Positions 10,542 to 34,429 of a stretch of DNA of 64,000 bases are shown here, piece by piece (the stretch's first letter is position 1; each line of letters begins with the position of its first letter). The stretch is taken from assembly GCF_025629245.1 (NCBI RefSeq), contig NZ_JANZXN010000022.1, forward strand, positions 72,664-136,663, in the 5' to 3' direction. A program made the translations under genes and the position numbers. The notes under the pieces were generated by a model, which was not told the origin of the DNA, did no database searches, and saw only the letters and a program-made list of their open reading frames with translations. Source of the stretch: Natronobiforma cellulositropha. GTDB taxonomy: Archaea > Halobacteriota > Halobacteria > Halobacteriales > Natrialbaceae.

Positions 10542-11318
10542 CTATTCGAGGAGACCGAGCCGCTGAAATTCCGCTCGGGTGAGCCCTGCCCGCCCGAGTC
10601 GCGTGCCGTGGGCGTCGCTGCCGCCGGTGATCTGGAGACCGTGCCGATCGATAGCACGCTCGAGCGGGGCCGTCTCGACCGTCCGCCCGTAGGGGTAGTG
10701 GTACTCGAGTGCGTCGAGGTCGGCGGTGAGTGCGAGCGCGGCTGCGGGGTCACGGTAGCGAAGCGGGTGGGCGAGTGAGACGAGCGTGCAAGCCCCCTTC
10801 AGGAGGGCGACGCCGCGCTCGAACGACGGAATCTCGCGCGGGACGTAACACGGACAGCCGTCACCGATCAGGTCGTCGAACGCATCCTGATAGTCGAGCG
10901 CCGTCTCGGGGTGGGCGGCGACCGCTCTGGCGACGTGCGGGCGGCCGACGCCGTCTTCGATGGCGAGGTCGAGGTCGATTCCCAGGCGGTCTTCGACGCG
11001 GTCGGCGATCGCCCGGCCGCGCTCGCGACGGTTGCGCTGGATTCGTCCACAGCAGCGCTCGAGTCCGGCCGTCGGGGAGACGCCGTGCCCCAGCAGGTCC
11101 ACCCGGGTGCCGTCGGCCGCCTCGACGCGGAGTTCGATGCCGGAGACGAGCGTCACGCCGTCGCGCTCGACGGTCGGTTCGGAGAAGGGCTGTAGCCGGT
11201 CGTGGTCGGTGATCGCGACGACTCGCACGCCCGCCTCGTGTGCGGCGGCGGGCACCGCCTCGAGGTCGAGCGTCCCGTCCGAGCGCGTAGTGTGGACGTG
11301 GAGGTCGGCGTAGGGCAT
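10542..11318 (-). CDS. PHP-domain metal-dependent phosphoesterase
   Basis: This 258-aa protein starts MPYADLHVHTTRSDGTL, the first PHP metal-binding motif (HxH). It continues with ITDHDRL, SGIELRVEAADGTRVDLLGHG, LAHPLRY and the late GGSDAHG. All the motifs expected for a trinuclear metal site are present. Characterised relatives hydrolyse 5'-nucleoside 3',5'-bisphosphates or short oligoribonucleotides. An AT-rich divergent promoter region of ~145 bp (TATA-like TATAT at ~11371-11377, read leftward) separates it from the next gene. Confidence 0.88.
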   Translation of the reverse strand: MPYADLHVHTTRSDGTLDLEAVPAAAHEAGVRVVAITDHDRLQPFSEPTVERDGVTLVSGIELRVEAADGTRVDLLGHGVSPTAGLERCCGRIQRNRRERGRAIADRVEDRLGIDLDLAIEDGVGRPHVARAVAAHPETALDYQDAFDDLIGDGCPCYVPREIPSFERGVALLKGACTLVSLAHPLRYRDPAAALALTADLDALEYHYPYGRTVETAPLERAIDRHGLQITGGSDAHGTRLGRAGLTRAEFQRLGLLE

Positions 11319-19564: not shown

Positions 19565-20740
19565 TCACTCGACTCGAGCGTCCACCACGACGTGCCAGAC
19601 ACCCGCGCTGTGGCTCTTCACGCGGTGTTTCTCGAGGACCTCGAGCGAGCGCCCCGCCTCGTCGACGGCGCGCTCGAGGCGGGCGAGCGGCCGTTCCCAC
19701 AGCCGAGTCTCGGGCGTGGCTTCGTGGTAGTGGAGCACGCCGCCGGACTCGAGTGCGTCGAGGGCATGTGCGAGGAAGTCTGCGGCCTCCTCGCGGCGGG
19801 TGCCGTGGCCCGCCTCGTCGGTCCCGTCGGGGACGCCGTAGTAGCCCATCACGACGCGGTCGGCGCTCACCGAGAGGTCGCGACAGTCGCTGCGGTAGGC
19901 GTCGACGCGCCCTGCGACGTCGTTCAACACCGCGTTCTCGAGCAGGTAGCGAAACGCCGTCGGGTTGATCTCGCTCGCGGTGACCTGTGCGCCGGCGCGG
20001 GCCATCGGGAGGGTGAAGTAGCCGATGCCCGCGAACATGTCGAAGACGCGCTCGCCGTCGGAAACGACGTCGCCCATGCGCGCGCGTTCGGCCTGGTTGC
20101 CCGGCGAGAACATCACCGCTGCGGGGTCGAGTCCGTACCGGGTGCCGTGTTCGGTGTGGACCGTCTCCGTATCACGCGAGCCAGCGAGCAGGCGGGTACG
20201 CGGCTGGCGCGTGGTTCCGGCGGCGGCGTCGGTCGCGATTCCCTCGTCGGCGAGTACCGAGGCGGCTTCACCGTGGCACTCGAGCAGCGCCTCACCGACC
20301 GCGCGCTCGTCGGGACAGCCCTCGGGAACGCGAACAAGCACGACGCTGCCGACGACGGCCCAGGAGGACGGTGCCGACTCGAGGTCGGCCTCGCTCCAGC
20401 CGCGCTCGCGCAGGCGGTCGGCGAGCGTCCGGGTCCGGTAGGCGGGGTCGACCTGGCGGACCACCTCGTGGACGCGGGTCGCGGTCGGTGGCTCCGTGAT
20501 CGGCACCGCGACGAACGCCTCGCGCTCGGCGGCGGGACGGACGCGCCTCGAGTCGTCGTAACAGCCCTCGGCGCGCAGGCTCTCGATGACGGTCTCGGTT
20601 CGCTCCGTCTCGACGACGGCGGCCAGCGGGTGTGCGCCCGTCTCGAGCGGGCCCACCGCGGTTCCCTCTCTGCCCGCATCCGTCTCGTCCGTCCCGTTCG
20701 CCCCGTTCGCCCCATCCACCCCGTCCGCCTCTTCAGGCAT
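19565..20740 (-). CDS. taw2: tRNA wybutosine-pathway transferase Taw2 / Trm5-like SAM-dependent enzyme
   Basis: This 391-aa protein has an N-terminal low-complexity tail, an accessory domain and a class I SAM-binding core: VMFSPGNQAERARM, VFDMFAGIGYFTLPMARAG, then SEINPTAFRYLLENAVLNDV, and HYHEATPE near the end. The SPGNxxER motif is characteristic of Tyw2/Taw2, which transfers an aminocarboxypropyl group from SAM to wyosine-type bases at position 37 of tRNA-Phe, rather than the related Trm5 methylase. Its start overlaps the nmd3 stop by eight bases, so the two are cotranscribed. Confidence 0.85.
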   Translation of the reverse strand: MPEEADGVDGANGANGTDETDAGREGTAVGPLETGAHPLAAVVETERTETVIESLRAEGCYDDSRRVRPAAEREAFVAVPITEPPTATRVHEVVRQVDPAYRTRTLADRLRERGWSEADLESAPSSWAVVGSVVLVRVPEGCPDERAVGEALLECHGEAASVLADEGIATDAAAGTTRQPRTRLLAGSRDTETVHTEHGTRYGLDPAAVMFSPGNQAERARMGDVVSDGERVFDMFAGIGYFTLPMARAGAQVTASEINPTAFRYLLENAVLNDVAGRVDAYRSDCRDLSVSADRVVMGYYGVPDGTDEAGHGTRREEAADFLAHALDALESGGVLHYHEATPETRLWERPLARLERAVDEAGRSLEVLEKHRVKSHSAGVWHVVVDARVE

Positions 20741-21854
20741 CGTCCTCGTCGGGCAGGATGTGGAGTCCGGCGCGGCTCTTGAGAACGGGTACCGTCTCGG
20801 CGTCGGGGTCGAAGTAGTCGGGTCTCGAGACGGTTTTCGCCTGGTAGGTCTCGGGGTCGAGCACCTGGACGGCGTGGTCGTCTTCGACGGTGACGACGGT
20901 CGCCTCGACGGCGTCGTCGGTGTCGCCGAGTTTGCGCGCCTCGGGGGCGTTGCCCTCCTCGTAACTCGCCTCGTAGCGCTCGCCGGTGCGGACGCGGGTG
21001 CCTTTCAGGTTGCCGTGGGCGCTGCGCACCAGGACGGGACCGTCGCCGTCGTCGACGTCGATCACGTCGCCGGGGATGTACGGCGGGAGGCGGACGGCGA
21101 ACGTGACCCGGTAGACGCCGTTGCCGTCTTCGTCCTCGGTGACGAGCGTCTCGGCGTCGTTGACGGTGCCGCCGAACTCCTCGACCATCTTGTTCGAGAT
21201 CTTCTTGCCGATCTTGTTCGTCGAGACCCGCATGTTCAGCCCGTCGGGCGTCTCGCTCGTCTTCGTGATGAAGGCGTTGCGGTCGCCGGTCGCCTCCATG
21301 TCGGCGACGATCCGGTTCGCGATCTCTTTGGCCCGTTCGATCTCCTCGCTCGTCGGCGTCCGCTCCTCCGCGCGGATCTGGACGACGCTCGCGTAGTAGT
21401 CGCCGGAGATCCGGCCACACCGGGTGCAGGTCTGTTTGGCGATCTTGACGGGGACCGTCACCGACTCCTCGACGAGCTGTCCCCGGACCGTCCCGGTGAA
21501 GTAACAGTGCATCCGAACCGTGTTGACGCCGACCTCCTCGGGATCGACCTGCCAGGAGACGTCCTCGACGTCGACGTGGACCGAGATGGCTTCGCTCACC
21601 TCCTCGATGGCGATGTCGGTGTAGTCGTCCGCTCCGACGTCGACCCACCGCCGTCCCCGGTGGACGGCCCCACACTGGGCACAGACCCGGACGTCGATAC
21701 GCTTGGGCGCGTCGACGAACTCGAAGCGTTCGAAGTAACACGCGTCACAGAGGTCGACCGCCGCGTTCGACCGCAACGGATCGGACGCGCCGCTCTCGTC
21801 CCGGTCTGTGACCGGATCACCGCAGCGCGGACAGAACGCACGCGAATCAGTCAT
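20733..21854 (-). CDS. nmd3: Archaeal NMD3-family protein
   Basis: This 373-aa protein begins with repeated CxxC zinc ribbons (FCPRCGDP, DLCDACYFERF, RVCAQCGAVHRG) and another pair (TCTRCGRISGDYY), followed by beta-rich domains. This is the pattern of NMD3, the eukaryotic 60S export adaptor whose archaeal homologues associate with the large ribosomal subunit. The ATG at 21852-21854 gives MTDSRAFCPRCGDP; upstream in-frame sequence is intergenic. The gene is divergent from htpX across the region with two ORB-like sites and overlaps taw2 by eight bases. Confidence 0.9.
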   Translation of the reverse strand: MTDSRAFCPRCGDPVTDRDESGASDPLRSNAAVDLCDACYFERFEFVDAPKRIDVRVCAQCGAVHRGRRWVDVGADDYTDIAIEEVSEAISVHVDVEDVSWQVDPEEVGVNTVRMHCYFTGTVRGQLVEESVTVPVKIAKQTCTRCGRISGDYYASVVQIRAEERTPTSEEIERAKEIANRIVADMEATGDRNAFITKTSETPDGLNMRVSTNKIGKKISNKMVEEFGGTVNDAETLVTEDEDGNGVYRVTFAVRLPPYIPGDVIDVDDGDGPVLVRSAHGNLKGTRVRTGERYEASYEEGNAPEARKLGDTDDAVEATVVTVEDDHAVQVLDPETYQAKTVSRPDYFDPDAETVPVLKSRAGLHILPDEDDA

Positions 21855-21956: not shown

Positions 21957-21980
21957 GTTCCACCCGAAACGAGGGGGTTG
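21957..21980 (+). other. Origin recognition box (ORB)-like sequence 1
   Basis: TTCCACCCGAAACGAGGGGG (21958-21977) matches the archaeal Orc1/Cdc6 binding pattern: TTCCA, variable dinucleotide, GAAACGA and a G-string. It lies in the 427-bp gap 21855-22281 between divergent nmd3 and htpX, which contains no gene. Confidence 0.65.
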
Positions 21981-22204
21981 CCGGCCGGCATCAGTACCGT
22001 TGGTGACGGCCACGTGAATCGTTCGAAACCGCTGTGTGAGCGCTCGATGCTGGTGTTTCCGTTACTATCTCCCTCTTCACTCCTTCTGAGATGTTTCTTC
22101 GATGGTGTGTTTCCGACGGAGATATTGACGACGGGAGACCGGCTGTCAGTCACCTGTCTGACGGGCGCTCGAGAGCGGCTGTCAGACGGGACCACGTCAC
22201 ACGG

Positions 22205-22228
22205 ATTCCACGCGAAACGAGGGGGTTC
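22205..22228 (+). other. Origin recognition box (ORB)-like sequence 2
   Basis: TTCCACGCGAAACGAGGGGG (22206-22225) is a second copy in the same orientation, 248 bases from the first; over 24 bases the two differ at only three. Sequence between them is relatively AT-rich for this genome and has repeated CGGCTGTCAG motifs (~22140 and 22177). No orc1/cdc6 gene is in the window. Confidence 0.65.
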
Positions 22229-22281
22229 ACGCGAGGAGACGGTTCGGTGATACTTATCCCGCCAGGCTGCCTAGAGAGCGT

Positions 22282-23187
22282 ATGGACTGGCAGCCGGACT
22301 GGGGACTGCGGGCACGGATGGCGCTCACGATGTTCATGCTCTTTGCGGTCTACCTCTTCTTCGTCGCCGCGCTCACCATCGGCTTCGGTGGGGGGACCTC
22401 GAGCCTGCTGCTCGTTGCGACGCTGCTGGGGGCGTTCTCGCTCGTCCAGTTCTTCTTCAGCGACCGCCTGACGCTGTGGAGCATGGGCGCGAAAGAGGCC
22501 TCTCCACAGGAGTATCCGGAGCTTCACGCCGCCGTCGAGCGGCTGAGCCAGCAGGCGGACCTGCCGAAGCCGACGGTCGCCGTCGTCGACTCGAAGGTCC
22601 CGAACGCGTTCGCGACGGGCCGCTCGCCGAAGAACGCCGCCGTCGCCGTCACGACCGGACTCCTGGTGACGCTCGACCGCGAGGAACTCGACGGCGTCCT
22701 CGCCCACGAACTCGCCCACGTCAAGAACCGCGACGTCGCCGTGATGACCATCGCCTCGTTCCTCTCGACGATCGCCTTCCTCATCGTGCGCTTCGGCGGC
22801 CAGATGATGTTCTACACCGGCGGCGGCAACCGCGGGGGTGGGAAGGGCGCGGCGGGCATCCTCGTCGCCATCCTCGTCTCGCTGCTCGTCTGGATCATCA
22901 GCTACATTCTGATCCGCGCGCTCTCGCGCTACCGCGAGTTCGCCGCCGACCGCGGCGCTGCGGCGATCACCGGCCAGCCCGCCGCACTCGCCTCCGCCCT
23001 GCTGAAGATCTCCGGCGAGATGGAGAAGGTCCCGAGTGACGACCTCCGCGAGGAAGCCGAGATGAACGCCTTCTTCATCATCCCCATCCGCTCGGGCATC
23101 GTCGGCCGACTGTTCAGCACCCACCCCTCGACCGACCGCCGGATCGAACAGCTCCGTACCCTCGAGCGCGAGATGGAGTCGTTCTGA
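22282..23187 (+). CDS. htpX: HtpX-family membrane zinc metalloprotease
   Basis: This 301-aa M48 peptidase has two N-terminal membrane helices (~12-34, 40-58), the zinc motif HELAH (His142, Glu143, His146) and a further pair of helices (~152-170, 193-213). The third zinc ligand Glu lies in YREFAADRGA. HtpX removes damaged membrane proteins under stress. The pspAB gene follows 68 bp later on the same strand, consistent with a membrane-stress unit. The ATG at 22282 fits the family N-terminus. Confidence 0.94.
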   Translation: MDWQPDWGLRARMALTMFMLFAVYLFFVAALTIGFGGGTSSLLLVATLLGAFSLVQFFFSDRLTLWSMGAKEASPQEYPELHAAVERLSQQADLPKPTVAVVDSKVPNAFATGRSPKNAAVAVTTGLLVTLDREELDGVLAHELAHVKNRDVAVMTIASFLSTIAFLIVRFGGQMMFYTGGGNRGGGKGAAGILVAILVSLLVWIISYILIRALSRYREFAADRGAAAITGQPAALASALLKISGEMEKVPSDDLREEAEMNAFFIIPIRSGIVGRLFSTHPSTDRRIEQLRTLEREMESF

Positions 23188-25065: not shown

Positions 25066-26883
25066 TTAGACTTCTTCCCAGGGACCCCACGGGGTGGCAC
25101 CAGGCTCCTGGCTCTGGGTGTACCACTGAGCCTCCCAGGTCGAACCGTCGTAGGAGACGCGGTCGCCATCGGTGTAGACCTCGCCTGCGTCCCACGCCTG
25201 GGCGTCACCGCCGGAGCCGCCAGTGTCGCCGCCGGAGCCGCCAGTGTCGCCGTCGGAGCCGCCAGTGTCGCCGCCGGAGCCGCCATCGCTCGTCCCGACT
25301 TCCTCCCAGGGACCGTACTCTCTGCCTCCGGGCTGCTCGTTATGGGTCCACCACTGGGCCTCCCAGGTCGAGCCGTCGTAGCTGACGCGGTCGCCCTCGG
25401 TGTAGACCTCGCCCGAATCCCACGCCTGGGCGTCGCCGGTAGTGCCGTCGTCGGTCTGGTCGTCATCACTGGTATCGTCATCACCACCGCTGTCGGAGCC
25501 GTCGTCGCTACCGTCCAGAGAGAACTCGAGGTAGTTGAGGTCCCACCAGCTCTCGTTCATCGAGACGCGGATGACTTGCTGTCCAGCCGACAGCGACACG
25601 CCGGAGGTGGAGACGGTCTCCCAGGTGTCCCAGCCGCCGGTAGCACCGAAGCTGACGTCACCGGAGATGTCCTGTCCGCCGACCTCGAGATTGAAGGCGC
25701 CGCCGTCGGAGTCGGAAGCGACGAGCGCGTCGACGGTGTACTCGCCGGACTGTGTGACGTCGACGGTGTACTCGACCCACTCGCCGGCCTCGATGTGCCC
25801 GATGGAGTATCCCGAGCCGCCGGATCCCGAGGAGATGTCGACGTACTGGTCTGTACGCATGGCACCGCCCTCGTTTTCACTGGTGTTGTCGCTGTAGGCG
25901 ACGTCCGGACCGCCCTCGTCGTACTCCTCGGCCTGGATACGTCCGGGGATCGCGTGTGGAGTGCCGCCGTAGGGTTCCTGGTCGCCGGTTTCCGGCTCCT
26001 CACTGCCGGTGTCGTCACCCGGCTCCTCACCGCCGGGATCGCCGCCGCCGATACCACCCGAACCGCCACCGTCGGATTCACTGATCGTGACGCTGGCGCT
26101 GTTCGAGCCCGAATAGCCCCAGGCCTCGACGGCCATGATCTGGTAGTCGTGGTTGCCCAACGGGAGACCAGCGCTCTCCCAGGCGTCGAAGTGGTTGCCG
26201 ATGCTGATGGTGCCACTGGTTCGGGAGTTCTCCCGGATGCTCCAGTACTGGGTGAACGTCGCCGTCCCCTCGATCGAGGGCTCCTGGATGCGCTCGGAGG
26301 TGGCGAGTTCGTAGGTGCTGCCGTCGCTCTCGTGACTACCGATTTGCTCGTCGCCGGGCCGGTAGGTCCCGTAGTTTTCGATGATGTAGTACTCGACGAG
26401 CGGGTCCGTCGTCCAGCCGTAGAGACACAGGTAGGAGTTGTCCGTCGGATTGTGCGTGGCGTCGTACTCGATGGTCCGGCTACTACCGGGGTTCCAACCC
26501 TTGCCGAGGACGAAGTTGCCCGTGTTGTTCCACTCACAGCTGTAACTGCCGCCGGACTCCAGCGTCATCGAAACCGTATCGGGTGTATCCGTCCAGAACG
26601 AGACGAAGTGGCCGTCGTGTTCGGTCTGGGTGTTCTCGGTGAGCGTCTCCTGGGCGACGGCCGAGGTCGCCATCGCCCCGGCACCGAGACCGGTTGCCGC
26701 CGCCGCACCGACGGTTCGCAGGAACCCGCGACGGCCAACCGAACCCGACTCGGCCGACTCACTCGGCCGCTCGAGGTCGGCCTGGAAGTCGCGCAGACGC
26801 TTCGCTGCTGGGGGGAGTTCGGTACGTTGCTCCGTCGTCTCTTCGACACCGGAGGTCGCTTCGGTATCGCAGTCGTCGATCAT
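25066..26883 (-). CDS. Tat-exported GH11 endo-xylanase with CBM6-like and two chitin/cellulose-binding modules
   Basis: The 605-aa protein has a Tat signal (GRRGFLRTVGAAAATG, Arg51-Arg52). A glycoside hydrolase family 11 domain (~90-270) has the nucleophile in DPLVEYYIIENYGTY (Glu164) and the acid/base in QIMAVEAWGYSGS (Glu253), plus FTQYWSIR. A Gly/Glu linker leads to a CBM6-like domain (~310-455; RIQAEEYDEGG, WWDLNYLEFSL). Two nearly identical CBM5/12-like modules follow (each AWDxGEVYTxGDRVSYDGST then EAQW), separated by a GGSGGDTGG-rich linker. Family members hydrolyse beta-1,4-xylan outside the cell. GH11 is uncommon in archaea, so bacterial origin is plausible. Divergent from radA across a 318-bp gap (26884-27201). 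Confidence 0.93.
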   Translation of the reverse strand: MIDDCDTEATSGVEETTEQRTELPPAAKRLRDFQADLERPSESAESGSVGRRGFLRTVGAAAATGLGAGAMATSAVAQETLTENTQTEHDGHFVSFWTDTPDTVSMTLESGGSYSCEWNNTGNFVLGKGWNPGSSRTIEYDATHNPTDNSYLCLYGWTTDPLVEYYIIENYGTYRPGDEQIGSHESDGSTYELATSERIQEPSIEGTATFTQYWSIRENSRTSGTISIGNHFDAWESAGLPLGNHDYQIMAVEAWGYSGSNSASVTISESDGGGSGGIGGGDPGGEEPGDDTGSEEPETGDQEPYGGTPHAIPGRIQAEEYDEGGPDVAYSDNTSENEGGAMRTDQYVDISSGSGGSGYSIGHIEAGEWVEYTVDVTQSGEYTVDALVASDSDGGAFNLEVGGQDISGDVSFGATGGWDTWETVSTSGVSLSAGQQVIRVSMNESWWDLNYLEFSLDGSDDGSDSGGDDDTSDDDQTDDGTTGDAQAWDSGEVYTEGDRVSYDGSTWEAQWWTHNEQPGGREYGPWEEVGTSDGGSGGDTGGSDGDTGGSGGDTGGSGGDAQAWDAGEVYTDGDRVSYDGSTWEAQWYTQSQEPGATPWGPWEEV

Positions 26884-30658: not shown

Positions 30659-30744
30659 GCACCCGGACCCGAGGTGTTCCGTCTTCGCTCGCGTGCCTCG
30701 AGCGGTCGCAACCCTTTTCGGCCGTTCGGCCGTAGAGGTCCGCA

Positions 30745-32390: not shown

Positions 32391-34325
32391 ATGAACACTA
32401 GAAGGGATGTGCTCCGGAACGGTCTCGCGGCGTCGACGTTCGCCGCGTTCGGTTCTCTCGGACTCACGACCGGTGTCGGTGCGGCCGACTCGCTCGAGGA
32501 CGACGGTGTCTGGTTCGACACGGCCTCGCTCTCGATGTCTCCCGACGAGTTCCAGTTCAACGCACAGTTCCTCCACCACGACGCCCTGTACGGACTCTAC
32601 GCGCCGTTTACCGCCTACCGCGTCGAGAGCGACGAGTTCCACCCCCACTTCGTCGAGGACTGGACGGTCGAAGACGGCTCGATGACACTCCACCTCCGTG
32701 AGGACTTCACGTGGGGTGGCGCAGGTGGCGGTGACCCCATCACCGCCGACGACGTCGTCCTCCACCTCGAGCTCCGGGCGTACGTCGACGACGAGTTCTC
32801 CTGGTTCGTCGACGGGATCGACGCCGTCGACGACCACACCGTCGAACTCACCTTCCCCGCGGGGACGAACCCCGACCTGGTCGTCTACTCGGTCCTCGAC
32901 TACAGCCTGACGCACCCACCGGCGGCCTTCGGTGACGACCACGACGACCTCGTCGCGGGCGACGATCCGTCCTACCCCGGCTCCCTGCAGGAGACGGTCG
33001 TCCCCTCCGGCCCGCTCGAGCTGGTCGAGGAAACGGACGAGTACCACGCCTACGGCGTCCGTGACGGCCACCCGGCCGCCGCCGACATCGACTGGGACGG
33101 CTACCGGATGTGGGCACGCGAGTCGAATACGGACGCACTGGCGTCGCTCGAGGACGGATCACTCGACGGATTCGCGACCCAGTGGTCGAGCGACGATCCG
33201 CTTCCCGAGACCGCCGAACGGGTGAGCGTCTCCGACGGTGTGGGCGTCGCCGTTCAGTTCGTCCACGACAGCGAGCACTTTCGTAGCCGGACGGTTCGCC
33301 GGGCGTTCATGTACGCCCTCGACCGCGAAGCGATCGTCGACGACCTGACGGCGGGGACGGCGATCCACCACGAACGGCCGACGGGTCTCTCCGCACAGAG
33401 CGCACAGCGGTGGCTCGGCGATACGCTCGAGACCTACGACGCCTACGAGCAGGACCACGACCGCGTCACGGAGCTACTCGAGAGCGCGGGCTACGAACTC
33501 GTCGACGGCACGTGGCGGCGCGCTTCCCAGTCGCTCACCGTCGACATCGCCACCGACGGTCAGCCGCGGTGGGCGGAAGTCGCGGCGGAAATCGTCTCAC
33601 AGCTCTCGGAGGCGGGCTTCGACGCGACCCTCGTCGTCGAACCCGACATCGTACACAAACTCGTCGACGGCGACCTCGAGGCTGACGCCGTCGTCTCCGG
33701 CTTCCTGCCGGGAGCCGTCTTCCGCGCCCAGGCACGCCAGCACCACCCCTACTTCGCGTTGTTGCTCACGCTACTGATCAGCCGGTACGCCCCGTTCGAC
33801 TACGGCTATCCGACGACCGTCTCGGTTCCCTCGATGACCGGCACCTGCTCGGAACTGGTCGACATCGAGGACTGCTTCGAGCGCTTCGAGACGGCCACCG
33901 ACCCGGCCGAACAGCGCGACATCGTCGAGACGCTCACCTGGGTGTTCAACCAGGACCTTCCCGCCGCGGTCATCATGGAGCCGACCATCCAGACCGTCGT
34001 CGACCGCAGCCGGTGGACGGTTCCCGACGACTCCCCGTACCTCGAGACGCGCGCGCCGCTGTGGTGGCTGGCGCTCGAGGGTGACCTCCAACCCGCAGGC
34101 GACGGACCCGACCTCGAGATCAACGGCTACACGCCTGCCCCCTACGGCGACGACGGTCTCTACCGCGACATCACTGGCGACGGCCGGGTCGGCTTCAACG
34201 ACGTGGTGACGTTCTTCGAACACCACGACGACGCCACGATCCAGGACCACCCCGACCTGTTCGACTTCGACGGCAGCGGCCGGGTCGGCTTCAACGACGT
34301 GGTCGCACTATTCGAGTCGATTTAG
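32391..34325 (+). CDS. Tat-exported ABC-transporter solute-binding protein (family 5) with dockerin-like C-terminus
   Basis: This 644-aa protein has a Tat signal (NTRRDVLRNGLAASTFAAFG). The SBP_bac_5 family (peptide or nickel-type substrates) domain shows LTPEF-like features such as VEDGSMTLHLREDFTW, ADDVVLHLELRAYVDD and FMYALDREAIVDDL. At the end two EF-hand-like repeats, DITGDGRVGFNDVVTFF and FDFDGSGRVGFNDVVALF, form a dockerin-type module. TATA AATATTTATA (~32357) gives a leaderless start at 32391. No permease genes are adjacent. The substrate cannot be predicted. Confidence 0.88.
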   Translation: MNTRRDVLRNGLAASTFAAFGSLGLTTGVGAADSLEDDGVWFDTASLSMSPDEFQFNAQFLHHDALYGLYAPFTAYRVESDEFHPHFVEDWTVEDGSMTLHLREDFTWGGAGGGDPITADDVVLHLELRAYVDDEFSWFVDGIDAVDDHTVELTFPAGTNPDLVVYSVLDYSLTHPPAAFGDDHDDLVAGDDPSYPGSLQETVVPSGPLELVEETDEYHAYGVRDGHPAAADIDWDGYRMWARESNTDALASLEDGSLDGFATQWSSDDPLPETAERVSVSDGVGVAVQFVHDSEHFRSRTVRRAFMYALDREAIVDDLTAGTAIHHERPTGLSAQSAQRWLGDTLETYDAYEQDHDRVTELLESAGYELVDGTWRRASQSLTVDIATDGQPRWAEVAAEIVSQLSEAGFDATLVVEPDIVHKLVDGDLEADAVVSGFLPGAVFRAQARQHHPYFALLLTLLISRYAPFDYGYPTTVSVPSMTGTCSELVDIEDCFERFETATDPAEQRDIVETLTWVFNQDLPAAVIMEPTIQTVVDRSRWTVPDDSPYLETRAPLWWLALEGDLQPAGDGPDLEINGYTPAPYGDDGLYRDITGDGRVGFNDVVTFFEHHDDATIQDHPDLFDFDGSGRVGFNDVVALFESI

Positions 34326-34365: not shown

Positions 34366-34429
34366 ACCGATCGAGTTTCCCCATCAGTTCAGGCTTGGAA
34401 CGCCACTAGCGACCACCTTTCAACAGGGA

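Follow-up and report, generated by a model that had tools for sequence, protein, structure and literature searches.

A conserved ORB-containing composite element between nmd3 and htpX of Natrialbaceae as a candidate satellite control locus of the oriC1 initiator Cdc6A

The window analyzed here, a 64,000-nucleotide stretch of Natronobiforma cellulositropha DNA, corresponds to bases 72664–136663 of a 141-kb contig. It contains nmd3 (20733–21854, minus strand, start at 21854; Pfam NMD3, E = 1.8e-57) and, divergently oriented, htpX (22282–23187, plus strand), which encodes an M48 metalloprotease (Pfam Peptidase_M48, E = 1.3e-38). Two sequences of the origin recognition box (ORB) type lie inside the 428-bp gap between these genes, both on the plus strand and 248 bp apart: ORB1, TTCCACCCGAAACGAGGGGG, is the nmd3-proximal copy at 21958–21977, and ORB2, TTCCACGCGAAACGAGGGGG, is the main htpX-proximal copy at 22206–22225, embedded in a composite element. 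A preliminary description of this DNA had reported two ORB-like boxes in the same orientation and at this spacing, in a gene-free stretch between divergent nmd3 and htpX, with a repeated CGGCTGTCAG motif between them. All of this was confirmed: both 20-mers were found in place, Pfam supported both gene assignments, and the motif is present twice, at 22140–22149 and 22176–22185, where it forms part of the conserved composite. A TATA-like sequence, ATACTTAT, at 22250–22257 (plus strand), approximately 28 bp before the htpX start and downstream of ORB2, is a putative promoter of a leaderless htpX; the ACTTAT before htpX is kept in most relatives. An N-terminal extension of NMD3 across ORB1 was rejected: alignments with homologues begin at the 21854 ATG, and the region ahead of it is of variable length. 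An Rfam search for structured RNA gave no match up to E = 1, and a scan for sigma-70 promoters and terminators, a type of scan not apt for archaea, returned nothing. Elsewhere in the window, positions 25066–26883 (minus strand) encode a multi-domain GH11 xylanase with CBM6/35 and CBM5/12 modules, which is unusual in a haloarchaeon.

Both boxes of the gap match 18 of 18 constrained ORB bases, including the G-string. No other match to either 20-mer was found in the window at up to three mismatches, and 100 dinucleotide shuffles yielded none. A scan of the 3.76-Mb genome for the 19-mer pattern found exact matches nowhere but in the nmd3–htpX gap, where there are two, against a first-order Markov expectation of ~5e-5 copies per genome and ~6e-9 in the gap; the reversed pattern, used as a control over the whole genome, gave no match. 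A chance origin of ORB1 and ORB2 was rejected on the shuffles, the genome scan and the Markov estimate. Most genome matches with one or two mismatches belong to oriC1, which is on this contig too. Copies scattered genome-wide with no relation to orc genes had been named in the preliminary description as an argument against an Orc site; the high-quality copies are not scattered and cluster around cdc6A and oriC1.

The main ORB, whose family consensus is YTCCATGCGAAACGARGGGGTT, lies in 70 loci within a fixed composite of ~85 bp, in which GTCAGAC boxes at −61, −50 and −25 are followed by CGTC. The composite can be written as ..GTCAGAC-N4-GTCAGAC-N18-GTCAGACGt..cc.CGTC.cg.GGT-YTCCATGCGAAACGARGGGG-TT, and over the 70 loci conservation drops to background on both sides of it. 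In the window, the box at −25 from ORB2 occupies 22181–22187 (plus strand), a position that is exactly −25 in 68 of the 70 composite loci. A GTCAG(TC) box at −61 (22145–22151, plus strand) corresponds to GTCAGAC at −60 to −62 in 31 relatives, and a reverse GTCAGAC box at −50 (22156–22162, minus strand) to boxes at −50/−51 in 36 relatives, where they are mostly on the plus strand. Between the −25 box and ORB2 lies a partial dyad, GACG....CACGTC (22185–22198), whose CGTC at −11 to −8 (22195–22198) is conserved, with column frequencies of 0.69, 0.97, 0.94 and 0.87 over the composite loci. The distal, nmd3-side ORBs of relatives have a GTCAGAC partner in 1 of 62 cases; their spacer is variable and their ORB core is kept. 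A search for the composite pattern gave one copy in this genome and one in each other carrier, apart from a tandem pair in one relative (G033), and none in 44 genomes of other families. The two tandem composites of G033 (L408:3066-3251) stand next to an upp-like gene, at a locus unrelated to nmd3–htpX and 158 kb from the oriC1 of G033; Natrinema-like genomes have a lone ORB in this upp-like-gene neighbourhood.

Conservation was followed across 121 Natrialbaceae genomes, 117 of which yielded an nmd3 gene; upstream regions were read in 110 of these and displaced htpX genes separately, counting as an ORB any sequence with at most one mismatch to YTCCANNNGAAAYGARGGGG. At least one ORB is present at the nmd3/htpX locus in 96 of the 110 genomes, which bears out the conservation in related species that the preliminary description had proposed to look for. 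Carriers include Natronorubrum bangense, Natrialba taiwanensis, Natronococcus amylolyticus, Halopiger goleimassiliensis, Halobiforma nitratireducens and Natrinema pallidum. Each locus holds one to three ORBs, spaced 20 to ~250 bp apart, and all 121 sites at the nmd3 loci of the family lie on the strand that points at htpX, with no match to the reversed pattern. The orientation of the site with respect to oriC1 or to fork movement is not conserved, the ORBs pointing away from oriC1 here and toward it in another genome (G046). No ORB was found at 30 htpX loci of other haloarchaeal families (Halorubrum, Haloferax, Halogeometricum, Natronomonas, Halostella and others), and nothing comparable at ~60 named outgroup loci. 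In several other families, nmd3 and htpX are likewise divergent neighbours, in some cases with only ~100–200 bp between them, so the element seems to have been gained in the Natrialbaceae lineage.

The composite does not depend on its neighbours. It lies mostly ~116 bp before htpX and within 60–150 bp of it in 42 of 57 loci; yet it survives where htpX is not nearby. In Natrinema-like genomes, a convergent creatininase-like gene lies between the composite and htpX, and the composite remains by nmd3. It is likewise kept by nmd3 in two genomes in which htpX is 10–17 kb off (G117, G118); with G095 and G028, these form a group that retains the composite although htpX is 0.3–17 kb away or elsewhere. 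In other genera, an insertion of ~1.5 kb separates the composite from nmd3, and the composite remains by htpX. A natural experiment is provided by two rearranged genomes, G035 and G110, in which cdc6A is separated from the oriC1 ORB pair, itself intact ~160 kb away, and the intact composite sits 0.5 kb upstream of cdc6A, far from both nmd3 and htpX. Judged from its distribution, the composite is an autonomous DNA element independent of neighbouring genes, because it survives displacement of htpX, nmd3 or both.

The canonical oriC1 is located near 33.6–36 kb of the same contig, outside the window, with cdc6A after its ORBs. The ORB consensus described for haloarchaeal oriC1, G-string included (PMC3528665), is identical to the nmd3–htpX boxes. 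The arrangement differs. At oriC1, the ORBs form an inverted pair, at 33592 (minus) and 33902 (plus), flanking a stretch of 51% AT; at nmd3–htpX, they are direct repeats around a weaker AT stretch of 42%, compared with a contig mean of 34%, and are accompanied by additional GTCAGAC boxes. The 50-bp AT maximum of the gap (22062–22111) reaches 58%, the 99th percentile of the contig, and the oriC1 peak 66%. Except in rearranged G035 and G110, cdc6A is not adjacent to the site. A genome search with PF09079 found no orc1/cdc6 gene in the window, which agrees with the earlier view of an orphan site; the nearest one is cdc6A, which lies upstream, with oriC1, at a distance of 60 kb. The genome has four cdc6 genes, three of them on contigs other than that of cdc6A. 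This ORB type is absent from the neighbourhoods of those three, so the boxes at nmd3–htpX belong to the cdc6A/oriC1 system. The preliminary description had proposed an origin or an origin-like Orc binding site: the ORB-type sequences stand, and the origin is not supported, with ORBs as direct repeats, no cdc6 nearby and the real oriC1 60 kb away.

The nmd3–htpX site is one of several ORB-like sites around oriC1. Positional statistics were obtained from pattern searches of selected genomes with complete or near-complete hit lists. Among 145 ORB-like sites in 14 relatives, 72 lie within 8 kb of cdc6A and 21 at nmd3/htpX; of the remaining 52, 44 fall within 300 kb of cdc6A, where a uniform distribution would place 8.2, a clustering whose p-values are overstated, as related genomes are non-independent and part of the clustering is inherited synteny. 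In other families, oriC1 is likewise surrounded by ORB-like sites. In nearly all of 27 genomes, an ORB precedes the cdc6A start codon by ~34 bp in the same orientation (contig position 34389–34408 in this genome), and another lies ~600–800 bp inside cdc6A. The fixed position of the former suggests that Cdc6A may also regulate its own gene. Many relatives carry an inverted ORB pair, 53–58 bp apart, at 3–5 kb from cdc6A, as at 30664 (minus) and 30722 (plus) of the present contig, near G-rich tandem repeats, or at 3520250 and 3520306 in G084. Several genomes have a single ORB ~60–100 bp upstream of a rhodanese-like lipoprotein gene, 30–38 kb from cdc6A. A further ORB is found inside the hef coding sequence, ~50–60 kb from oriC1 where measured, in a linker where it encodes S(S/T)GNEG adjoining a PIP-like QPGLQEF motif. 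On another contig of this genome, a weaker inverted ORB-like pair, at 10571 (minus) and 11383 (plus), flanks a UPF0029-family gene with no cdc6 nearby.

In the layout of its boxes, the nmd3–htpX site resembles a regulatory site and not an origin; the origin reading fails on inverted ORBs and an adjacent cdc6, both of which were looked for and are absent. We consider it probable that the boxes are genuine Cdc6A sites and do not form an origin. The more specific reading that we favour, that of a satellite non-origin control locus for the oriC1 initiator Orc1/Cdc6A, has about an even chance of being right, and sequestration or activity control as its main role is a serious proposal to which we give slightly less than even weight. 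In molecular terms, Cdc6A would bind both ORBs, the GTCAGAC boxes would be occupied by another protein, probably one that bends DNA or belongs to the nucleoid, and the two together would sequester or modulate Cdc6A. At a few tens to ~400 kb from oriC1, the locus would be replicated shortly after initiation there, and its two copies would then draw the initiator away from oriC1, a logic shared with E. coli datA and the H. hispanica oriC2D region. The most likely role of the site, on this proposal, is to help control the timing of the start of chromosome replication. One finding that counts against this control-locus reading is the composite's prevailing distance from htpX, which is the classic position of an activator.

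The main rival is that Orc1/Cdc6A or a paralogue regulates transcription of htpX, nmd3 or both, which would tie membrane proteolysis or the expression of a ribosome export factor to the state of replication. Besides the spacing upstream of the conserved TATA-like ACTTAT, it is favoured by ORBs that always point at htpX, by the second conserved satellite ORB in the same orientation upstream of the rhodanese-like lipoprotein gene, by the ORB at −34 of cdc6A, and by a precedent in Sulfolobus, in which Orc1-2 is a transcription regulator with a DNA-damage regulon (PMC9738581). The precedent is alike in placing an Orc1 family protein at non-origin sites; Orc1-2 is, however, a non-initiator paralogue, unlike the oriC1 initiator Cdc6A. 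Lineages that lack htpX at the site keep the element, which weakens a pure htpX operator, and the element also persists where inserts separate it from nmd3 and, in G035 and G110, where both genes are missing. A simple htpX/nmd3 operator fails to explain this persistence, which points back to an independent DNA element, and we regard the transcriptional reading as rather unlikely.

That Cdc6A, acting in trans, fires a minor, dormant or backup origin here is improbable. The gap is somewhat AT-rich in its mean and best 50 bp, the predicted oriC10 of Natrinema J7 replicates a plasmid without a cdc6 gene (PMC5350488), and dormant origins have been reported in H. mediterranei (PMC4595724). The ORBs, however, are direct and never inverted in every relative, at spacings that vary widely, and the site has neither a cdc6 gene nor a skew inflection, no GC-skew turning point being seen at 22 kb. 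Moreover, the J7 predicted oriC3, ~35 kb from oriC1 and without a cdc6, gave fewer than 10 transformants (PMC5350488); its distance is suggestive of one of the satellites, although its primers matched unconvincingly. Equally improbable is that the boxes serve some transcription or nucleoid factor not related to Orc1/Cdc6 and resemble ORBs by coincidence: the site-specific spacer bases (ATGC) do differ from those of the oriC1 ORBs, and the latter lack GTCAGAC boxes in this genome, but the ORB match is complete, G-string included, distal copies hold the core while their spacer varies, and the same motif clusters around cdc6A and oriC1.

The archaeal block on origin refiring within a cycle is poorly understood, and the only haloarchaeal precedent found for the favoured control-locus reading is oriC2D of Haloarcula hispanica, an ORB-rich non-origin region downstream of oriC2-cdc6E that holds 11 ORBs (PMC3936714). 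It shows no ARS activity, can be deleted only together with oriC2, and lowers oriC2 activity, an effect interpreted as titration of Cdc6E (PMC3936714). Both are archaeal Orc1/Cdc6-box loci without origin structure, and oriC2D is thought to restrain its origin by binding the initiator. The oriC2D boxes lie directly beside cdc6E, whereas the present site has two ORBs 60 kb from cdc6A, together with GTCAGAC boxes, in the oriC1/cdc6A system. With only one to three ORBs per locus, simple titration capacity would be small, which favours an activity-control or nucleoprotein role over sponging. The element is conserved, small and open to deletion, has a well-defined second motif and lies 60 kb from an oriC1 of the standard type, so that such a role can be tested directly at this site. 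It also cautions users of origin-prediction tools that an ORB with no cdc6 beside it does not necessarily mark an origin.

In E. coli, datA and DARS are DnaA-box loci with accessory sites. The nmd3–htpX locus resembles them as an autonomous intergenic initiator-box locus distant from the origin, with an apparent accessory site at fixed spacing; its initiator and boxes are non-homologous to theirs. Of the features that datA and oriC2D would lead one to expect, boxes outside an origin structure are present, many boxes or a high capacity are absent, and autonomy from flanking genes is found together with a positional link to the origin that synteny partly explains. Tentatively, and by analogy, Natrialbaceae may carry a dedicated counterpart of datA/DARS, at which Cdc6A and a second protein bound to the phased GTCAGAC boxes would inactivate or release the initiator, and which would act as one of the satellite ORBs of oriC1, alongside the autoregulatory ORB of cdc6A.
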